Shown here in pieces: positions 26,776-46,318 of a DNA stretch of 64,000 nt. This DNA is from Astropecten irregularis (Eukaryota > Echinodermata > Asteroidea > Paxillosida > Astropectinidae). Numbering within the stretch: the first letter of the stretch is position 1; every line of letters begins with the position of its first letter. The position numbers and the translations under genes were made by a program. The DNA lies in NCBI GenBank assembly GCA_963971285.1, contig OZ020248.1:7812001-7876000 (forward strand). Direction: 5' to 3'. The notes beneath the pieces are model-generated. The model was not told the origin of the DNA. It did not search any database and was given only the letters and a program-made list of their open reading frames with translations.

Positions 26776-29467
26776 AATTTGGCACAGCCCATATTTCCCT
26801 GTAGAGTTCATCTGGGGCTACATGTCGTGCAAGTTTCAAGTCGGTTTCCTCAGTATTCAGGGAGAAATTTCCAACTCTAGCGTCAAAAGGTGTCTCATAG
26901 TCTAAGCACAGTTTTAATGCGGCCTGCTCGGAGTCCTTCACGCATAGCGTGTGGTGCTTTACTTGGATTTTCGGCCATGAACATGACTTTGGAATTTGGC
27001 ACAGCCCATATTTCCCTGTAGAGTTCATCTGGGGCTACATGTCGTGCAGGTTTCAAGTCGATTACCTCAGTATTCAGGGAAAAATTTCGAACTCGAGCGT
27101 CAAAAAGTGTCTCATAGTCAAAGTGCAGTTTTAATGCGGCCTGCTCGGAGGCCTTCACGCATAGCGTGTGGTGCTATACTTGGATTTTCGGCCATGAACA
27201 TGACTTTGGAATTTGGCACAGCCCATATTTCCCTGTAAAGTTCATATGGGGCTACATGTCGTGCAGGTTTCAAGTCGGTTGCCTCAGTATTCAGGGAGAA
27301 ATTTCCAACTCTAGTGTCAAAAATTTTCTCATAGTCTAGGTACAGTTTTAATGCGGCCTGCTCGGAGGCCATCACGCATAGCGTGTGGTGCTATACTTGG
27401 ATTTTTAGCCATGAACATGACTTTGGAATTTGGCACAGCCCATATTTCCCTCTAGAGTACATCTGGGGCTACATGTCGTGCAAGTTTCAAGTCGATTACT
27501 TCAGTATTCAGGGAGAAATTTCCAACTCTAGTGTCAAAAATTGTCTCATAGTCTAAGCACAGTTTTAATGCGGCCTGTTCGGCGGCCTTCTCTCATAGCG
27601 TGTGGTGCTACACTTGGATTTTCGGCCATGACCATGACTTTGGAATTTGGCACAGCCCATATTTCCCTGTAGAGTTCATCTGGGGATACATGTCGTGCAA
27701 GTTTCAAGTCGATTGCCTCAGTATTCAGGGAGAAATTTCCAACTCTAGCGTCAAAAAGTGTCTCATAGTCTAAGTGCAGTTTTAATGCGGCCTGATCGGA
27801 GGCCTTCTCGCATAGCGTGTGTTGCTTTACTTGGATTTTAGGCCATGAACATGACTTTGGAATTTGGCACAGCCCATATTTCCCTCTAGAGTACATCTGG
27901 GGCTACATGTCGTGCAAGTTTCAAGTCGATTACCTCAGTATTCAGGGAAAAATTTCGAACTCGAGCGTCAAAAAGTGTCTCATAGTCAAAGTGCAGTTTT
28001 AATGCGGCCTGCTCGGAGGCCTTCACGCATAGCGTGTGGTGCTATACTTGGATTTTCGGCCATGAACATGACTTTGGAATTTGGCACAGCCCATATTTCC
28101 CTGTAGAGTTCATCTGGGGCTACATGTCGTGCAGGTTTCAAGTCGATTGCCTCAGTATTCATGGAGAAATTTCCAACTCTAGAGTCAAAAATTGTCTCAT
28201 AGTCTAAGTACAGTTTTAATGCGGCCTGCTCGGAGGCCTTCACGCATAGCGTGTGGTGCTATACTTGGATTTTCGGCCATGACCATGACTTTGGAATTTG
28301 GCACAGCCCATATCTCCCTGTAGAGTTCATCTGGGGATACATGTCGTGCAAGTTTCAAGTCGATTGCCTCAGTATTCAGGGAGAAATTTCCAACTCTAGA
28401 GTCAAAAATTGTCTCATAGTCTAATTGCAGTTTTAATGCGGCCTGCTCGGAGGCCTTCTCGCATAGCGTGGGGTGCTATACTTGGATTTTAGGCCATGAA
28501 CATGACTTTGAAATTTGGCACAGCCCATATTTCCCTGTAGAGTACATCTGGGGCTACATGTCGTACACGTTTCAAGTCGGTTTCCTCAGTATTCAGGGAG
28601 AAATTTCCAACTCTAGCGTCAAAAAGTGTCTCATAGTCTAAGTGCAGTTTTAATGCGTCCTGATCGGAGGCCTTCTCGCATAGCGTGTGTTGCTTTACTT
28701 GGATTTTAGGCCATGAACATGACTTTGGAATTTGGCACAGCCCATATTTCCCTCTAGAGTACATCTGGGGCTACATGTCGTGCAAGTTTCAAGTCGATTA
28801 CCTCAGTATTCAGGGAAAAATTTCGAACTCGAGCGTCAAAAAGTGTCTCATAGTCAAAGTGCAGTTTTAATGCGGCCTGCTCGGAGGCCTTCACGCATAG
28901 CGTGTGGTGCTATACTTGGATTTTCGGCCATGAACATGACTTTGGAATTTGGCACAGCCCATATTTCCCTGTAGAGTTCATCGCATAGCGTGTGGTGCTA
29001 TACTTGGATTTTCGGCCATGAACATGACTTTGGAATTTGGCACAGCCCATATCTCCCTGTAGAGTTCATCTGGGGCTTCATGTCGTGCAAGTTTCAAGTC
29101 GGTTTCCTCAGTATTCATGGAGAAATTCCCAACTCTAGCGTCAAAAAGTGTCTCATAGTCTAAGTGCAGTTTTAATGCGGCCTGATCGGAGGCCTTCTCG
29201 CATAGCGTGTGTTGCTTTACTTGGATTTTAGGCCATGAAAATGACTTTGGAATTTGGCACATCCCATATTTCCCTCTAGAGTACATCTGGGGCTACATGT
29301 CGTGCAAGTTTCAAGTCGATTACCTCAGTATTCAGGGAAAAATTTCGAACTCGAGCGTCAAAAAGTGTCTCATAGTCAAAGTGCAGTTTTAATGCGGCCT
29401 GCTCGGAGGCCTTCTCGCATAGCGTGTGTTGCTTTACTTGGATTTTAGGCCATGAACATGACTTTGG
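26776..29467 (+). repeat. 2692-bp HOR (12 monomers plus 88 bp), copy 1
   Basis: Sequence repeats at 29468-32159 with a constant 2692-bp offset, which is 12 x 217 + 88. The odd 88 bp comes from one internally deleted monomer. Private shared changes include GTCAAAAGGTGTC (26882 and 29574), GCTCGGAGTCCTTC (26928 and 29620), CTGTAAAGTTCATATGG (27233 and 29925), ATGCGTCCTGATCGG (28655 and 31347) and GGCACATCCCATATT (29267 and 31959). I saw no clear difference within the paired core, suggesting a very recent duplication. Confidence 0.92.
28975..28990 (+). other. Truncated-monomer junction 1
   Basis: GAGTTCATC (monomer positions up to 119) is joined directly to GCATAGCG (position 32 of the next monomer), removing 129 bp. 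Both flanks carry TC at the breakpoint, so 2 bp of microhomology is compatible with the deletion. The identical junction is at 31667-31682, 42476-42491 and 45385-45400. Confidence 0.93.
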
Positions 29468-32173
29468 AATTTGGCACAGCCCATATTTCCCTGTAGAGTT
29501 CATCTGGGGCTACATGTCGTGCAAGTTTCAAGTCGGTTTCCTCAGTATTCAGGGAGAAATTTCCAACTCTAGCGTCAAAAGGTGTCTCATAGTCTAAGCA
29601 CAGTTTTAATGCGGCCTGCTCGGAGTCCTTCACGCATAGCGTGTGGTGCTTTACTTGGATTTTCGGCCATGAACATGACTTTGGAATTTGGCACAGCCCA
29701 TATTTCCCTGTAGAGTTCATCTGGGGCTACATGTCGTGCAGGTTTCAAGTCGATTACCTCAGTATTCAGGGAAAAATTTCGAACTCGAGCGTCAAAAAGT
29801 GTCTCATAGTCAAAGTGCAGTTTTAATGCGGCCTGCTCGGAGGCCTTCACGCATAGCGTGTGGTGCTATACTTGGATTTTCGGCCATGAACATGACTTTG
29901 GAATTTGGCACAGCCCATATTTCCCTGTAAAGTTCATATGGGGCTACATGTCGTGCAGGTTTCAAGTCGGTTGCCTCAGTATTCAGGGAGAAATTTCCAA
30001 CTCTAGTGTCAAAAATTTTCTCATAGTCTAGGTACAGTTTTAATGCGGCCTGCTCGGAGGCCATCACGCATAGCGTGTGGTGCTATACTTGGATTTTTAG
30101 CCATGAACATGACTTTGGAATTTGGCACAGCCCATATTTCCCTCTAGAGTACATCTGGGGCTACATGTCGTGCAAGTTTCAAGTCGATTACTTCAGTATT
30201 CAGGGAGAAATTTCCAACTCTAGTGTCAAAAATTGTCTCATAGTCTAAGCACAGTTTTAATGCGGCCTGTTCGGCGGCCTTCTCTCATAGCGTGTGGTGC
30301 TACACTTGGATTTTCGGCCATGACCATGACTTTGGAATTTGGCACAGCCCATATTTCCCTGTAGAGTTCATCTGGGGATACATGTCGTGCAAGTTTCAAG
30401 TCGATTGCCTCAGTATTCAGGGAGAAATTTCCAACTCTAGCGTCAAAAAGTGTCTCATAGTCTAAGTGCAGTTTTAATGCGGCCTGATCGGAGGCCTTCT
30501 CGCATAGCGTGTGTTGCTTTACTTGGATTTTAGGCCATGAACATGACTTTGGAATTTGGCACAGCCCATATTTCCCTCTAGAGTACATCTGGGGCTACAT
30601 GTCGTGCAAGTTTCAAGTCGATTACCTCAGTATTCAGGGAAAAATTTCGAACTCGAGCGTCAAAAAGTGTCTCATAGTCAAAGTGCAGTTTTAATGCGGC
30701 CTGCTCGGAGGCCTTCACGCATAGCGTGTGGTGCTATACTTGGATTTTCGGCCATGAACATGACTTTGGAATTTGGCACAGCCCATATTTCCCTGTAGAG
30801 TTCATCTGGGGCTACATGTCGTGCAGGTTTCAAGTCGATTGCCTCAGTATTCATGGAGAAATTTCCAACTCTAGAGTCAAAAATTGTCTCATAGTCTAAG
30901 TACAGTTTTAATGCGGCCTGCTCGGAGGCCTTCACGCATAGCGTGTGGTGCTATACTTGGATTTTCGGCCATGACCATGACTTTGGAATTTGGCACAGCC
31001 CATATCTCCCTGTAGAGTTCATCTGGGGATACATGTCGTGCAAGTTTCAAGTCGATTGCCTCAGTATTCAGGGAGAAATTTCCAACTCTAGAGTCAAAAA
31101 TTGTCTCATAGTCTAATTGCAGTTTTAATGCGGCCTGCTCGGAGGCCTTCTCGCATAGCGTGGGGTGCTATACTTGGATTTTAGGCCATGAACATGACTT
31201 TGAAATTTGGCACAGCCCATATTTCCCTGTAGAGTACATCTGGGGCTACATGTCGTACACGTTTCAAGTCGGTTTCCTCAGTATTCAGGGAGAAATTTCC
31301 AACTCTAGCGTCAAAAAGTGTCTCATAGTCTAAGTGCAGTTTTAATGCGTCCTGATCGGAGGCCTTCTCGCATAGCGTGTGTTGCTTTACTTGGATTTTA
31401 GGCCATGAACATGACTTTGGAATTTGGCACAGCCCATATTTCCCTCTAGAGTACATCTGGGGCTACATGTCGTGCAAGTTTCAAGTCGATTACCTCAGTA
31501 TTCAGGGAAAAATTTCGAACTCGAGCGTCAAAAAGTGTCTCATAGTCAAAGTGCAGTTTTAATGCGGCCTGCTCGGAGGCCTTCACGCATAGCGTGTGGT
31601 GCTATACTTGGATTTTCGGCCATGAACATGACTTTGGAATTTGGCACAGCCCATATTTCCCTGTAGAGTTCATCGCATAGCGTGTGGTGCTATACTTGGA
31701 TTTTCGGCCATGAACATGACTTTGGAATTTGGCACAGCCCATATCTCCCTGTAGAGTTCATCTGGGGCTTCATGTCGTGCAAGTTTCAAGTCGGTTTCCT
31801 CAGTATTCATGGAGAAATTCCCAACTCTAGCGTCAAAAAGTGTCTCATAGTCTAAGTGCAGTTTTAATGCGGCCTGATCGGAGGCCTTCTCGCATAGCGT
31901 GTGTTGCTTTACTTGGATTTTAGGCCATGAAAATGACTTTGGAATTTGGCACATCCCATATTTCCCTCTAGAGTACATCTGGGGCTACATGTCGTGCAAG
32001 TTTCAAGTCGATTACCTCAGTATTCAGGGAAAAATTTCGAACTCGAGCGTCAAAAAGTGTCTCATAGTCAAAGTGCAGTTTTAATGCGGCCTGCTCGGAG
32101 GCCTTCTCGCATAGCGTGTGTTGCTTTACTTGGATTTTAGGCCATGAACATGACTTTGGAATTTGGCACAGCC
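29468..32173 (+). repeat. 2692-bp HOR, copy 2
   Basis: Second copy of the 12.4-monomer unit. The match to copy 1 ends at the CTGTAGAG/CTCTAGAG difference near 29482/32174. Parts of the same unit, including the deletion junction, recur near 42-46 kb. Confidence 0.92.
31667..31682 (+). other. Truncated-monomer junction 2
   Basis: Same TTCATC to GCATAGCG join as at 28975-28990, exactly 2692 bp downstream and inherited with the HOR. Confidence 0.93.
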
Positions 32174-38840: not shown

Positions 38841-39775
38841 GCTTGTGGTGCTATACTTGGATTTTCGGCCATGAACATGACTTTGGAATTTGGCACAGCC
38901 CATATTTCCCTGTAGAGTTCATCTGGGGCTACATGTCGTGCAGGTTTCAAGTCGATTGCCTCAGTATTCATGGAGAAATTTCCAACTCTAGAGTCAAAAA
39001 TTGTCTCATAGTCTAAGTACAGTTTTAATGCGGCCTGCTCGGAGGCCTTCACGCATAGCGTGTGGTGCTATACTTGGATTTTCGGCCATGAACATGACTT
39101 TGGAATTTGGCACAGCCCATATCTCCCTGTAGAGTTCATCTGGGGCGACATGTCGTGCAAGTTTCAAGTCGGTTTCCTCAGTATTCGGGGAGAAATTCCC
39201 AACTCTAGCGTCAAAAAGTGTCTCATAGTCTAAGTGCAGTTTTAATGCGGCCTGATCGGAGGCCTTCTCGCATAGCGTGTGTTGCTTTACTTGGATTTTA
39301 GGCCATGAACATGACTTTGGAATTTGGCACAGCCCATATTTCCCTCTAGAGTACATCTGGGGCTACATGTCGTGCAAGTTTCAAGTCGATTACCTCAGTA
39401 TTCAGGGAAAAATTTCGAACTCGAGCGTCAAAAAGTGTCTCATAGTCAAAGTGCAGTTTTAATGCGGCCTGCTCGGAGGCCTTCACGCATAGCGTGTGGT
39501 GCTATACTTGGATTTTCGGCCATGAACATGACTTTAGAATTTGGCACAGCCCATATTTCCCTGTAGAGTTCATCTGGGGCTACATGTCGTGCAGGTTTCA
39601 AGTCGGTTGCCTCAGTATTCAGGGAGAAATTTCGAACTCGAGCGTCAAAAAGTGTCTCATAGTCAAAGTGCAGTTTTAATGCGGCCTGCTCGGAGGCCTT
39701 CACGCATAGCGTGTGGTGCTATACTTGGATTTTCGGCCATGAACATGACTTTGGAATTTGGCACAGCCCATATTT
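38841..39775 (+). repeat. Satellite left flank of the transposon
   Basis: Four-plus monomers resembling 35.1-36.1 kb. They include the TTCATGGAGAAATTT monomer and a TTGCTTTACTTGG monomer, and they end after CATATTT, monomer position 103. Private changes are GGGGCGACATGTCG (39143) and GACTTTAGAATTTGG (39530). The partial monomer is completed on the far side of the insertion. Confidence 0.85.
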
Positions 39776-39787
39776 AGCTGTTCCGAC
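39776..39787 (+). repeat. 5' asymmetric terminal inverted repeat
   Basis: AGCTGTTCCGAC at the extreme 5' end of the element is perfectly complementary to 40469-40480. In Helentrons this repeat sits at the 5' tip while its partner is displaced inward at the 3' side, as here. Confidence 0.85.
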
Positions 39788-39806
39788 ATTTCTTATGTCG
39801 GAACAG
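39778..39806 (+). repeat. Perfect 12-bp terminal hairpin at 5' end
   Basis: CTGTTCCGACAT (39778-39789) and ATGTCGGAACAG (39795-39806) are perfect inverted repeats around the 5-base loop TTCTT. The inner arm contains the same GTCGGAACAG core as the 3' subterminal repeat. The 5' arm therefore has two possible partners in the element: the local arm, or the distant one 680 bp away. Confidence 0.9.
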
Positions 39807-40042
39807 GTTTAGTTTTTGTTCTGGTTTTTATTATTATTATACCTTCGCACTTTTGGCTTCCATAGCTTTGTGTGATAAGTTTGTTTATTCCTAATCTTTT
39901 ATAATCTTTTTCTGGTAAGCTTATGTGTGGTATATTATGGAAGCTTATAAGCTGAAGTTAATCCTAAGACTGAGTTTGTTAAAATTCTTAATTAATTAGT
40001 CATGTGACAGTCATTTGAATATTTAATAAGACAATTTTGTTC
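39807..40042 (+). other. AT-rich left body of the element
   Basis: About 236 bp with no coding frame of note. It contains a short TTA microsatellite near 39828-39840 and a perfect 12-bp palindrome, AGCTTATAAGCT, at 39942-39953. The last 40 bases (GTGACAGTCAT onward) faintly resemble the end of the core repeats that follow and may be a decayed partial repeat. Confidence 0.6.
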
Positions 40043-40182
40043 GCAGCATATCTCGAGAACCACAAATGCTATGGAAATGATTCTTTTTGCAAAAGCTTTG
40101 TTTTATCATGTAGTTGTGCATGCTGCCACGAAATTTAGTGTGACGTCATCATGACGTCATCAAAAAAGCTGATTTTTGATTA
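40043..40182 (+). repeat. Element core repeat 1 (about 140 bp)
   Basis: Starts GCAGCATATCTCGAGAACC, continues through ATGATTCTTTTTGCAAAAGC, and ends with two TGACGTCA palindromes (40141-40148 and 40152-40159) and AAAGCTGATTTTTG. It is the best-preserved copy of three direct repeats. Confidence 0.88.
40141..40159. promoter_or_regulatory. Tandem TGACGTCA palindromes (CRE-like)
   Basis: Two TGACGTCA palindromes separated by three bases. TGACGTCA is the consensus cAMP-response element bound by CREB/ATF bZIP proteins in animals. Whether these copies are bound is unknown. The same position in core repeats 2 and 3 has one intact palindrome plus one TGACATCA. Confidence 0.35.
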
Positions 40183-40324
40183 GCAGTATATCTCGAGAAC
40201 GGTAAGTGCTACAGTAATGATTCTTTTTGCAAAAGCTTTGTTATATCATGCATGTAGTTGTGCATTGCTTCGAAAAATGAACATGATGACATCATGACGT
40301 CATCAAAAAGCCTGATTTTTGTTT
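40183..40324 (+). repeat. Element core repeat 2 (about 142 bp)
   Basis: Starts GCAGTATATCTCGAGAACGG and keeps the same order of motifs: ATGATTCTTTTTGCAAAAGC, a CATGTAGTTGTGCAT stretch, one TGACATCA and one TGACGTCA (40294-40301). Substitutions and small indels relative to repeat 1 are spread throughout. Confidence 0.87.
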
Positions 40325-40462
40325 GCAGCATATTTGAAGAATGACAAATGCTATGGTAATGATTCTTTTTATAAAAGCTTTGCTGCATCATGTACATGAG
40401 TATGCTGCCATGAAATTGACCGTGACATCATCATGACGTCATCAGAGCTTACAAAGCTGATT
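40325..40462 (+). repeat. Element core repeat 3 (about 138 bp)
   Basis: Starts GCAGCATATTTGAAGAATG, where the CTCGAG of the other copies is lost. It carries ATGATTCTTTTTATAAAAGC, a TGACATCA and a TGACGTCA (40434-40441), and ends in AAGCTGATT just before the 3' terminal module. It is the most diverged of the three. Confidence 0.85.
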
Positions 40463-40468
40463 AAATAA

Positions 40469-40480
40469 GTCGGAACAGCT
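40469..40480 (-). repeat. 3' subterminal inverted repeat
   Basis: GTCGGAACAGCT, the perfect 12-bp reverse complement of the element's first 12 bases, lies 32 bp inside the 3' end. This displacement is the asymmetry expected of Helentrons. Confidence 0.85.
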
Positions 40481-40482
40481 CC

Positions 40483-40500
40483 GTGTTCGTCCACGAACAC
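40483..40500 (+). terminator. 3' hairpin of the rolling-circle element
   Basis: GTGTTCGT and ACGAACAC are perfect inverted arms flanking CC; in practice a 7-bp stem with a TCCA loop. The hairpin stands 12 bases before the CTAG end. In Helitron-class elements a hairpin at this position is thought to mark the end of rolling-circle transposition. It is not a transcription terminator; the type used here means transposition terminator. Confidence 0.75.
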
Positions 40501-40512
40501 TTAAATGTCTAG

Positions 40513-41204
40513 TTCCCTGTAGAGTTCATCTGGGGATACATGTCGTGCAAGTTTCAAGTCGATTGCCTCAGTATTCAGGGAGAAATTTCCAACACTAGCG
40601 TCAAAAAGTCACTCATAGTCTAAGTGCAGTTTTAATGCGGCCTGTTCGGCGGCCTTCTCTCATAGCGTGTGGTGCTACACTTGGATTTTCGGCCATGAAC
40701 ATGACTTTGTAATTTGGCACAGCTCATATTTCCCTGTAGAGTTCATCTGGGGCTACATGTCGTGCAAGTTTCAAGTCGGTTTCCTCAGTATTCAGGGAGA
40801 AATTTCCAACTCTAGCGTCAAAAAGTGTCTCATAGTCTAAGTGCAGTTTTAATGCGGCCTGATCGGAGGCCTTCTCGCATAGCGTGTGTTGCTTTACTTG
40901 GATTTTCGGCCATGAACATGACTTTGGAATTTGGCACAGCCCATATTTCCCTCTAGAGTACATCTGGGGCTACATGTCGTGCAATTTTCAAGTCGATTAC
41001 CTCAGTATTCAGGGAGAAATTTCCAACTCTAGTGTCAAAAATTGTCTCATAGTCTAAGCACAGTTTTAATGCGGCCTGCTCGGAGTCCTTCACGCATAGC
41101 GTGTGGTGCTTTACTTGGATTTTCGGCCATGAACATGACTTTGGAATTTGGCACAGCCCATATTTCCCTGTAGAGTTCATCTGGGGCTACATGTCGTGCA
41201 GGTT
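40513..41204 (+). repeat. Satellite right flank of the transposon
   Basis: The interrupted monomer resumes at TTCCCTGTAGAG. Its sequence (GGGGATACATG, then CAACACTAGCG and AAAAGTCACTC) matches what follows the equivalent monomer near 36100. No satellite was lost on insertion. The next monomer has the private change GCACAGCTCATATT (40719). Confidence 0.88.
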
Positions 41205-43896
41205 TCAAGTCGATTACCTCAGTATTCAGGGAAAAATTTCGAACTCGAGCGTCAAAAAGTGTCTCATAGTCAAAGTGCAGTTTTAATGCGGCCTGCTCGG
41301 AGGCCTTCACGCATAGCGTGTGGTGCTATACTTGGATTTTAGGCCATGAACATGACTTTGGAATTTGGCACAGCCCATATTTCCCTGTAGAGTTCATCTG
41401 GGGCTACATGTCGTGCAGGTTTCAAGTCGGTTGCCTCAGTATTCAGGGAGAAATTTCCAACTCTAGTGTCAAAAATTGTCTCATAGTCTAGGTACAGTTT
41501 TAATGCGGCCTGCTCGGAGGCCATCACGCATAGCGTGTGGTGCTATACTTGGATTTTCAGCCATGAACATGACTTTGGAATTTGGCACAGCCCATATTTC
41601 CCTCTAGAGTACATCTGGGGCTACATGTCGTGCAAGTTTCAAGTCGATTACCTCAGTATTCAGGGAGAAATTTCCAACTCTAGTGTCAAAAATTGTCTCA
41701 TAGTCTAAGCACAGTTTTAATGCGGCCTGTTCGGCGGCCTTCTCTCATAGCGTGTGGTGCTACACTTGGATTTTCGGCCATGACCATGACTTTGGAATTT
41801 GGCACAGCCCATATTTCCCTGTAGAGTTCATCTGGGGATACATGTCGTGCAAGTTTCAAGTCGATTGCCTCAGTATTCAGGGAGAAATTTCCAACTCTAG
41901 AGTCAAAAATTGTCTCATAGTCTAAGTGCAGTTTTAATGCGGCCTGCTCGGAGGCCTTCTCGCATAGCGTGGGGTGCTATACTTGGATTTTAGGCCATGA
42001 ACATGACTTTGAAATTTGGCACAGCCCATATTTCCCTGTAGAGTACATCTGGGGCTACATGTCGTACACGTTTCAAGTCGGTTTCCTCAGTATTCAGGGA
42101 GAAATTTCCAACTCTAGCGTCAAAAAGTGTCTCATAGTCTAAGTGCAGTTTTAATGCGGCCTGATCGGAGGCCTTCTCGCATAGCGTGTGTTGCTTTACT
42201 TGGATTTTAGGCCATGAACATGACTTTGGAATTTGGCACAGCCCATATTTCCCTCTAGAGTACATCTGGGGCTACATGTCGTGCAAGTTTCAAGTCGATT
42301 ACCTCAGTATTCAGGGAAAAATTTCGAACTCGAGCGTCAAAAAGTGTCTCATAGTCAAAGTGCAGTTTTAATGCGGCCTGCTCGGAGGCCTTCACGCATA
42401 GCGTGTGGTGCTATACTTGGATTTTCGGCCATGAACATGACTTTGGAATTTGGCACAGCCCATATTTCCCTGTAGAGTTCATCGCATAGCGTGTGGTGCT
42501 ATACTTGGATTTTCGGCCATGAACATGACTTTGGAATTTGGCACAGCCCATATCTCCCTGTAGAGTTCATCTGGGGCTTCATGTCGTGCAAGTTTCAAGT
42601 CGGTTTCCTCAGTATTCAGGGAGAAATTCCCAACTCTAGCGTCAAAAAGTGTCTCATAGTCTAAGTGCAGTTTTAATGCGGCCTGATCGGAGGCCTTCTC
42701 GCATAGCGTGTGTTGCTTTACTTGGATTTTAGGCCATGAACATGACTTTGGAATTTGGCACAGCCCATATTTCCCTCTAGAGTACATCTGGGGCTACATG
42801 TCGTGCAAGTTTCAAGTCGATTACCTCAGTATTCAGGGAAAAATTTCGAACTCGAGCGTCAAAAAGTGTCTCATAGTCAAAGTGCAGTTTTAATGCGGCC
42901 TGCTCGGAGGCCTTCTCGCATAGCGTGTGTTGCTTTACTTGGATTTTAGGCCATGAACATGACTTTGGAATTTGGCACAGCCCATATTTCCCTCTAGAGT
43001 ACATCTGGGGCTACATGTCGTGCAAGTTTCAAGTCGATTACCTCAGTATTCAGGGAAAAATTTCGAACTCGAGCGTCAAAAAGTGTCTCATAGTCAAAGT
43101 GCAGTTTTAATGCGGCCTGCTCGGAGGCCTTCACGCATAGCGTGTGGTGCTATACTTGGATTTTCGGCCATGAACATGACTTTGGAATTTGGCACAGCCC
43201 ATATTTCCCTGTAGAGTTCATCTGGGGCTACATGTCGTGCAGGTTTCAAGTCGATTGCCTCAGTATTCATGGAGAAATTTCCAACTCTAGAGTCAAAAAT
43301 TGTCTCATAGTCTAAGTACAGTTTTAATGCGGCCTGCTCGGAGGCCTTCACGCATAGCGTGTGGTGCTATACTTGGATTTTCGGCCATGACCATGACTTT
43401 GGAATTTGGCACAGCCCATATCTCCCTGTAGAGTTCATCTGGGGATACATGTCGTGCAAGTTTCAAGTCGATTGCCTCAGTATTCAGGGAAAAATGTCCA
43501 ACTCTAGAGTCAAAAATTGTCTCATAGTCTAAGTGCAGTTTTAATGCGGCCTGCTCGGAGGCCTTCTCGCATAGCGTGGGGTGCTATACTTGGATTTTAG
43601 GCCATGAACATGACTTTGAAATTTGGCACAGCCCATATTTCCCTGTAGAGTACATCTGGGGCTACATGTCGTACACGTTTCAAGTCGGTTTCCTCAGTAT
43701 TCAGGGAGAAATTTCCAACTCTAGCGTCAAAAAGTGTCTCATAGTCAAAGTGCAGTTTTAATGCGGCCTGCTCGGAGGCCTTCACGCATAGCGTGTGGTG
43801 CTATACTTGGATTTTCGGCCATGAACATGACTTTGGAATTTGGCACAGCCCATATCTCCCTGTAGAGTACATCTGGGGCTACATGTCGTGCAAGTT
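41205..43896 (+). repeat. 2692-bp HOR, second locus, copy 1
   Basis: Related to the unit at 26.8-32.2 kb and containing the same 129-bp deletion junction. It recurs at 43897-46318, first at a 2692-bp offset and then, from about 45.2 kb, at 2909 bp because copy 2 has one extra monomer. Shared markers are GGCCATCACGCATAG (41520 and 44212), GTCGTACACGTTTC (42061 and 44753) and GCGTGGGGTGC (41967 and 44659). Confidence 0.85.
42476..42491 (+). other. Truncated-monomer junction 3
   Basis: TTCATC joined to GCATAGCG, the same 129-bp deletion breakpoint as at 28975-28990 and carried in a related HOR more than 10 kb away. Confidence 0.93.
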
Positions 43897-45169: not shown

Positions 45170-45386
45170 TTCATCTGGGGCTACATGTCGTGCAGGTTTC
45201 AAGTCGATTGCCTCAGTATTCAGGGAGAAATTTCCAACTCTTGTGTCAAAAACTGTCTCATAGTCTAAGTACAGTTTTAATGCGGCCTGCTCGGAGGCCT
45301 TCACGCATAGCGTGTGGTGCTATACTTGGATTTTCGGCCATGAACATGACTTTGGAATTTGGCACAGCCCATATTTCCCTGTAGAG
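45170..45386 (+). repeat. Extra monomer inserted in HOR copy 2
   Basis: One full 217-bp monomer present here but absent from the corresponding place in copy 1 (near 42478). Its TCTTGTGTCAAAAACTG signature also occurs near 20800 and 51400, so it was probably brought in by exchange with such a family and not newly mutated. Edges are approximate. Confidence 0.72.
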
Positions 45387-45400
45387 TTCATCGCATAGCG
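45385..45400 (+). other. Truncated-monomer junction 4
   Basis: Fourth occurrence of the TTCATC to GCATAGCG join. It lies 2909 bp from junction 3, equal to 2692 + 217. Confidence 0.93.
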
Positions 45401-46318
45401 TGTGGTGCTATACTTGGATTTTCGGCCATGAACATGACTTTGGAATTTGGCACAGCCCATATCTCCCTGTAGAGTTCATCTGGGGCTTCATGTCGTGCAA
45501 GTTTCAAGTCGGTTTCCTCAGTATTCAGGGAGAAATTCCCAACTCTAGCGTCAAAAAGTGTCTCATAGTCTAAGTGCAGTTTTAATGCGGCCTGATCGGA
45601 GGCCTTCTCGCATAGCGTGTGTTGCTTTACTTGGATTTTAGGCCATGAACATGACTTTGGAATTTGGCACAGCCCATATTTCCCTCTAGAGTACATCTGG
45701 GGCTACATGTCGTGCAAGTTTCAAGTCGATTACCTCAGTATTCAGGGAAAAATTTCGAACTCGAGCGTCAAAAAGTGTCTCATAGTCAAAGTGCAGTTTT
45801 AATGCGGCCTGCTCGGAGGCCTTCTCGCATAGCGTGTGTTGCTTTACTTGGATTTTAGGCCATGAACATGACTTTGGAATTTGGCACAGCCCATATTTCC
45901 CTCTAGAGTACATCTGGGGCTACATGTCGTGCAAGTTTCAAGTCGATTACCTCAGTATTCAGGGAAAAATTTCGAACTCGAGCGTCAAAAAGTGTCTCAT
46001 AGTCAAAGTGCAGTTTTAAGGCGGCCTGCTCGGAGGCCTTCACGCATAGCGTGTGGTGCTATACTTGGATTTTCGGCCATGAACATGACTTTGGAATTTG
46101 GCACAGCCCATATTTCCCTGTAGAGTTCATCTGGGGCTACATGTCGTGCAGGTTTCAAGTCGATTGCCTCAGTATTCATGGAGAAATTTCCAACTCTAGA
46201 GTCAAAAATTGTCTCATAGTCTAAGTACAGTTTTAATGCGGCCTGCTCGGAGGCCTTCACGCATAGCGTGTGGTGCTATACTTGGATTTTCGGCCATGAC
46301 CATGACTTTGGAATTTGG

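Follow-up and report, generated by a model that had tools for sequence, protein, structure and literature searches.

The window, by which we mean the whole 64,000-nucleotide stretch of Astropecten irregularis DNA analyzed here (C11:7812001–7876000 in a host genome of 475.7 Mb and 168 contigs), is a tandem array of a 217-bp satellite that is interrupted at a single place. What kind of DNA makes up this interruption, how did it come to stand in the array, and what have its relatives done elsewhere in the genome? An earlier note, written from the letters alone, had described the insert as the only nonsatellite sequence in the 64 kb and as having the layout of a Helentron. The first claim is borne out by the monomer coverage, which leaves a sole uncovered stretch of at least 15 bases, at 39782–40509. 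The second was followed through the anatomy of the insert, its copies, and the genes that might move it.

Anatomy of the insert

The features of the window are as follows.

1–39775, unstranded: 217-bp satellite array, left part
39773–39775, unstranded: host TTT, left of the element; the empty junctions read CATA-TTT-CCCT in 210 cases and CATA-TCT-CCCT in 45 (n = 255)
39776–40512, + strand: whole element, very probably a HINE; 737 bp, without a gene; ends common to 17 of 17 other fetched full-length copies
39776–39787, + strand: 5′ subTIR AGCTGTTCCGAC, with its exact reverse complement at 40469–40480
39778–39806, + strand: 5′ stem-loop with a perfect 12-bp stem and a 5-nt loop; the 5′ arm is nested in the subTIR
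39825–39840, + strand: T run and (TTA)n microsatellite; the insertion place of further elements in relatives
40035–40444, + strand: central tandem repeat, period ~140 bp, 2.9 copies
40469–40480, + strand: 3′ subTIR GTCGGAACAGCT, reverse complement of AGCTGTTCCGAC
40483–40500, + strand: 3′ palindrome GTGTTCGT-CC-ACGAACAC, 12 bp away from the 3′ terminus
40509–40512, + strand: 3′ terminus CTAG (TTAAATGTCTAG); CTAG in 17 of 17 other fetched full-length copies
40513–40514, unstranded: TT, right of the element; the filled site equals the empty site plus two T
40513–64000, unstranded: 217-bp satellite array, right part

The element is AT-rich and has no coding capacity, the longest listed ORF inside it being 62 aa. 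Its 5′ end begins with AGCTG after the TT. Within the window, AGCTGTTCCGAC occurs once, at 39776, and its reverse complement GTCGGAACAGCT once, followed by 32 bp up to position 40512; an inverted repeat of 12 bp between the first 20 and the last 60 bases was reached in none of 2,000 dinucleotide shuffles. The 12-bp 5′ stem, with arms at 39778–39789 and 39795–39806, was matched in none of 2,000 such shuffles either, and its DNA fold gave a z score of –10.4. The 3′ hairpin taken alone beats the shuffles modestly (z = –2.2, with 7 of 200 shuffles equally good). The terminal repeat with its displaced reverse complement, the hairpin followed by CTAG, and the T's on both flanks had all been pointed out before and are present as described, while the 5′ stem, the (TTA)n tract, and the ~140-bp repeats are additions to that description. 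A search of Rfam with positions 39700–40600 at E values up to 1 gave no matches.

Ends, copies, and target site

Searching the genome with the element returned at least 125 matches, 16 of which, counting the window copy, were full length and at least 95% identical. We fetched 14 dispersed full-length copies and, from satellite of the same kind, the three that are identical to the window's. In all 17, the first base is the equivalent of 39776 and the last that of 40512 (14 of 14 for the dispersed ones), and the conserved ends of genomic copies thus coincide with those that had been read from the single copy. A TT stands on the left of every dispersed copy (ATT in 11, TTT in 3) and on the right of 13 of the 14; the exception, with TC, is L023, the copy farthest from the majority (8.4%). 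No regular longer target duplication was apparent to the eye in the fetched copies, which carry just the TT on each side. Over the 25 bp flanking them, the 14 dispersed copies are unlike each other by eye, and one of them, L014, sits inside a nest of relatives. The 3′ terminus, consisting of subTIR and palindrome, occurs 1,202 times at up to three mismatches, compared with zero occurrences of a reversed control pattern. Judged from the 14 dispersed copies checked, the family is dispersed, multicopy, and fixed in its ends.

A pattern search caught 255 uninterrupted junctions in the window, and these paralogous sites serve as a clean empty site that shows what the insertion changed: an empty monomer junction consists of three bases (TTT or TCT), whereas at the filled site TTT stands before the element and TT after it. 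From this comparison, the insertion added 737 bp and two T. The excerpted text of PMC4067079 gives the HINE target as two or more T to the left and to the right, with no indication of a change in the target.

Relatives beyond the host were sought as well. There were none in viral contigs with two terminus patterns and none in contigs of prokaryote genomes with one, and phages and plasmids gave only chance-level matches of 22–30 bp.

Assignment to the HINEs

The ends and the TT flanks support the earlier reading of a Helentron-like layout as opposed to that of a TIR transposon; what changes is the filing, as the element belongs with the HINEs, which are noncoding derivatives, and not with the Helentrons themselves. 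That the insert is a HINE, a noncoding and nonautonomous Helentron, we regard as close to certain, and with this adjustment the reading from raw sequence alone is confirmed. Excerpts of PMC4067079 describe HINEs as noncoding elements with subTIRs of 12–15 bp, a 3′ palindrome, a T-rich target, and, in some copies, a microsatellite or tandem repeats. Taking the marks of the class in turn, subTIRs of about 11–15 bp are represented here by an exact pair of 12 bp, and a palindromic subTIR or an inverted repeat nested in the 5′ subTIR by the 12-bp stem at 39778–39806. A palindrome 8–35 bp from the 3′ end is found at 12 bp, with a fold energy modestly beyond that of shuffles. The element further shows a TT or T-rich target without duplication beyond T, no coding sequence, a microsatellite with central repeats, and a dispersed family with fixed ends.

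The type of element is already established, and oysters, flies, and mites have the same kind. In the parts of PMC7492417 available, Cg_HINE of Crassostrea gigas has the same order of modules (5′ subTIR, complementary inverted repeat, microsatellite, central repeats, 3′ subTIR, and palindrome) and likewise inserts at TT without target duplication, the likeness being one of layout; its central repeats are predominantly 140–180 bp, next to a unit of ~140 bp here. The remaining comparisons draw on the excerpts of PMC4067079. DINE-1/INE-1 of Drosophila resembles the element in carrying an inverted-repeat 5′ arm inside the 5′ subTIR and has the microsatellite, the central repeats, the 3′ stem-loop, and the TT in common with it, again as a matter of layout. 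HINE-Mo of the mite Metaseiulus occidentalis shares the subTIRs of 12–15 bp, the 3′ palindrome, and the T-rich target but differs in the position of the 3′ subTIR: The 32 bp from the end in our element fall outside the 38–60 bp of the mite families, a range that describes those families and is not the classification rule of that study. The mite HINEs also have 2–4 nt between the TT and the 5′ subTIR, whereas here the subTIR follows the TT directly, and their subTIRs are themselves palindromic, whereas the 5′ arm of our element has the layout of DINE-1. A literature search with the 10-mer GTCGGAACAG gave no Helentron paper by title among the matches listed.

Nested relatives

Closely packed copies were found in twelve places, among them L029, where eight 5′ ends follow one another. 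We read these places as nests by letting each 5′ end open a bracket and each 3′ end close one; the depth so obtained is two to six levels (L029, L030, L031, L032, L033, L034, L038, L039, and L040). Left outside the nest count were L035, L036, L037, L041, L042, and L043, which contain no complete multilevel nest, and L079, which is mixed. The ends pair fully in six nests (L030, L032, L034, L038, L039, and L040); L030 shows one further opening, where the palindromic motif matches on the reverse strand. Inner elements start in the T run/TTATT tract of the outer one, ~55 bp in, and the outer element mostly resumes with TTATTATT directly after the inner 3′ end. Subfamily differences sit just before and just after this tract, and with the linkage of the main subfamilies taken from unbroken copies, the two halves of an interrupted element can be typed by eye. 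The outer 5′/3′ pairs of the six orderly nests match by subfamily in 10 of 10 cases, in last-in-first-out order; L032 combines three different types, and its outer pairs still match. With the inner elements subtracted, the outermost window-type elements measure 735, 734, 738, 739, and 732 bp (L030, L034, L038, L039, and L040, respectively), and the length of 14 of 15 measured copies is 728–738 bp. A window-type element is outermost in five of the six orderly nests and is, therefore, the oldest there.

We had first read the packed arrays as rolling-circle concatemers, which, like products of unequal exchange, would require no nested insertion, and dropped that reading since the ends pair. Rolling-circle replication has been credited for arrays with several 5′ ends (review PMC12628747, as excerpted), and three of the places do lack clean pairing: L031 has six pairs, the outermost 734 bp long, plus one extra 3′ end, with a type match in two of five outer pairs; L033 has one 3′ body in excess; and the row of 5′ ends in L029 is followed by four 3′ ends only, the first of the wrong type. 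Arrays of this origin are, however, hard to reconcile with six nests of paired ends, with 10 outer pairs matched by eye in last-in-first-out order, and with outermost elements that in five nests have the length (732–739 bp) of an ordinary copy, and we consider concatemers or unequal exchange improbable. L029, L031, and L033 may owe their irregular pairing to slippage, to conversion, or to the transposition of composites that carry several 5′ ends.

Under nested insertion, the packed relatives constitute a record of insertion order. Self-insertion of Helitrons has already been proposed in print: For the composite FoHeli of Fusarium oxysporum, the excerpts of PMC5148889 propose that it led to several 5′ ends with one 3′ end. 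In contrast to FoHeli, the nests here have several levels and paired 5′ and 3′ ends, and the inner elements begin in a T run/microsatellite near the 5′ end. In the portion of the literature consulted, we found no description of nests built via a HINE's own microsatellite.

A longer relative of ~3.5–4.5 kb is present at six sites (L074–L079), the main shared stretches being 97.1–99.0% identical to the L074 copy. Its 3′ part corresponds to bases 187 to 737 of the window element. The 5′ motif occurs in all six, intact and preceded by TT in five and with its first bases changed in L079, and four of the six contain an internal 3′ end, as expected of a composite. No open stretch of more than 150 codons is common to the copies; L076 has two open stretches, of which that of 216 codons is on the reverse strand and that of 153 codons spans the 5′ end, and in L078 a stretch of 232 codons likewise spans the 5′ end. 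The pattern suggests that longer, composite forms moved as units.

The six orderly nests with their matched outer pairs and the composite-like ends of the longer relative led us to consider that the (TTA)n tract, ~55 bp into the element, serves its own superfamily as a landing pad at which new copies enter older ones, so that the outer ends would be kept and the composite would grow inward while remaining mobile as a unit. We see the case for this as evenly balanced; three further nests pair only in part. If true, the tract would provide a route from transposon to tandem array without rolling-circle concatemers. How Helentrons seed tandem repeats is a question under discussion in the satellite-DNA literature (PMC12628747, as excerpted), and the recorded insertion order would allow it to be tested.

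Helentron genes in the genome

On the established model of the class, a Rep/helicase/endonuclease of a Helentron encoded elsewhere would nick the 5′ end of the element, one strand would be peeled off, copying would stop at the 3′ palindrome, and the strand would be joined into a TT site without duplication beyond the ambiguous T's. The element would thus depend on a Helentron partner. Profile searches of the genome gave 149 matches to Helitron_like_N (PF14214) and 147 to PIF1, many of both in uninterrupted frames of more than 3,000 codons. Rep motif 2 reads VEFQQRGSPHTH (RGSPHTH), with the Helentron S, in all 30 of the loci that score best among the 149; excerpts of PMC4067079 give a serine in this motif as a mark of Helentrons. 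In one gene, an Exo_endo_phos domain (PF03372, E = 3.1e-8) lies downstream of PIF1 in the same phase. The frame with the phase of this domain ends ~1.5 kb downstream of PIF1, and with 0.8 kb between PIF1 and the endonuclease unread, a fusion of the two in that gene is likely.

These genes bear on a neighboring class. A Helitron2-type derivative, served by a Rep/helicase partner without endonuclease, would also be expected to have asymmetrical inverted repeats and palindromes at both ends, going by the excerpts of PMC4067079. Against it stand the Helentron signature in every one of the 30 best-scoring Rep loci, the endonuclease domain downstream of one of them, and the insertion of the element at TT, and we rate this origin as unlikely.

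The earlier note had proposed a search for a longer relative with Rep-helicase and endonuclease domains and with both termini. The genome does carry Helentron genes, and none of them could be linked to the termini. On contig C1, none of the 37 listed PIF1 matches is followed within 15 kb downstream by an exact 3′ end of its own strand, the nearest being at 23 kb; the comparison drew on a list of 100 exact 3′ ends, which all belong to C1 and are part of the 1,202. The 3′ subTIR, at up to two mismatches, was absent from the first 1.6 to 4.3 kb past the stop, depending on the gene, in three of three Helentron genes.

The same three genes have tandem arrays 0.2 to 2 kb downstream of the stop, with periods of 75, 91, and 24 bp, all different.

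L080:2599–3056: downstream tandem array
L081:1–981: downstream tandem array
L082:260–1699: downstream tandem array

The part of the Helentron frames that precedes the Rep domain contains a K- and Y-rich, repetitive-looking stretch (L060 and other loci, by eye). At ~6–13 Mb of C1, many short or broken Helentron gene matches occur along with dense same-strand clusters of HINE 3′ ends; as a guess, this is perhaps a heterochromatic or sex-linked region.

History of the window copy

At a distance of 1.2% from the majority of 15 copies, the window copy is recent; the mean pairwise difference between dispersed copies is 2.8% (L022 and L023 excluded). The three copies identical to it lie 50–55 kb further on, ~25 kb between the window end and the fetched stretch being unread. 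Among the four, the first two monomers to the left and to the right are 97.2–100% alike, compared with 94% for random in-phase monomers, and monomers farther out are 91–100% alike; on its left, the window copy has a monomer that is only 97.2% like its counterpart at the other three. The last three identical copies follow at spacings of 2,258 and 2,475 bp, a difference of exactly one monomer. Given the identical elements, the shared neighboring monomers, and the one-monomer difference in spacing, the four copies would most simply go back to one insertion amplified with its adjoining monomers.

All four occupy the same monomer site, as independent insertions at a hot spot would. Such insertions would hardly yield four identical elements when dispersed pairs differ by 2.8% on average, nor adjoining monomers alike beyond background, and we think this origin very improbable in comparison with a single insertion followed by amplification.

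Other identities

A common origin of element and satellite was rejected, as a BLAST comparison of the element with one monomer yielded only chance-level similarity (best match 10 bp, E = 0.47). The canonical Helitron, with 5′ TC, A/T insertion, and no subTIRs, does not fit an element that has AGCTG after TT and carries subTIRs. A MITE or a DNA transposon of the foldback type, dependent on a cut-and-paste transposase, is very improbable. It would account for the short inverted repeats, the AT-richness, and the lack of a gene but needs flush inverted repeats and a target duplication, whereas the 3′ repeat lies 32 bp inside the end, so that the ends are not terminal inverted repeats, nothing beyond TT is duplicated, and the nested 5′ stem, 3′ palindrome, and central repeats make up a HINE layout.

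The satellite itself contains four 88-bp partial duplications with the same consensus (28890–29070, 31582–31762, 42391–42571, and 45300–45480), perhaps one event copied along the array.
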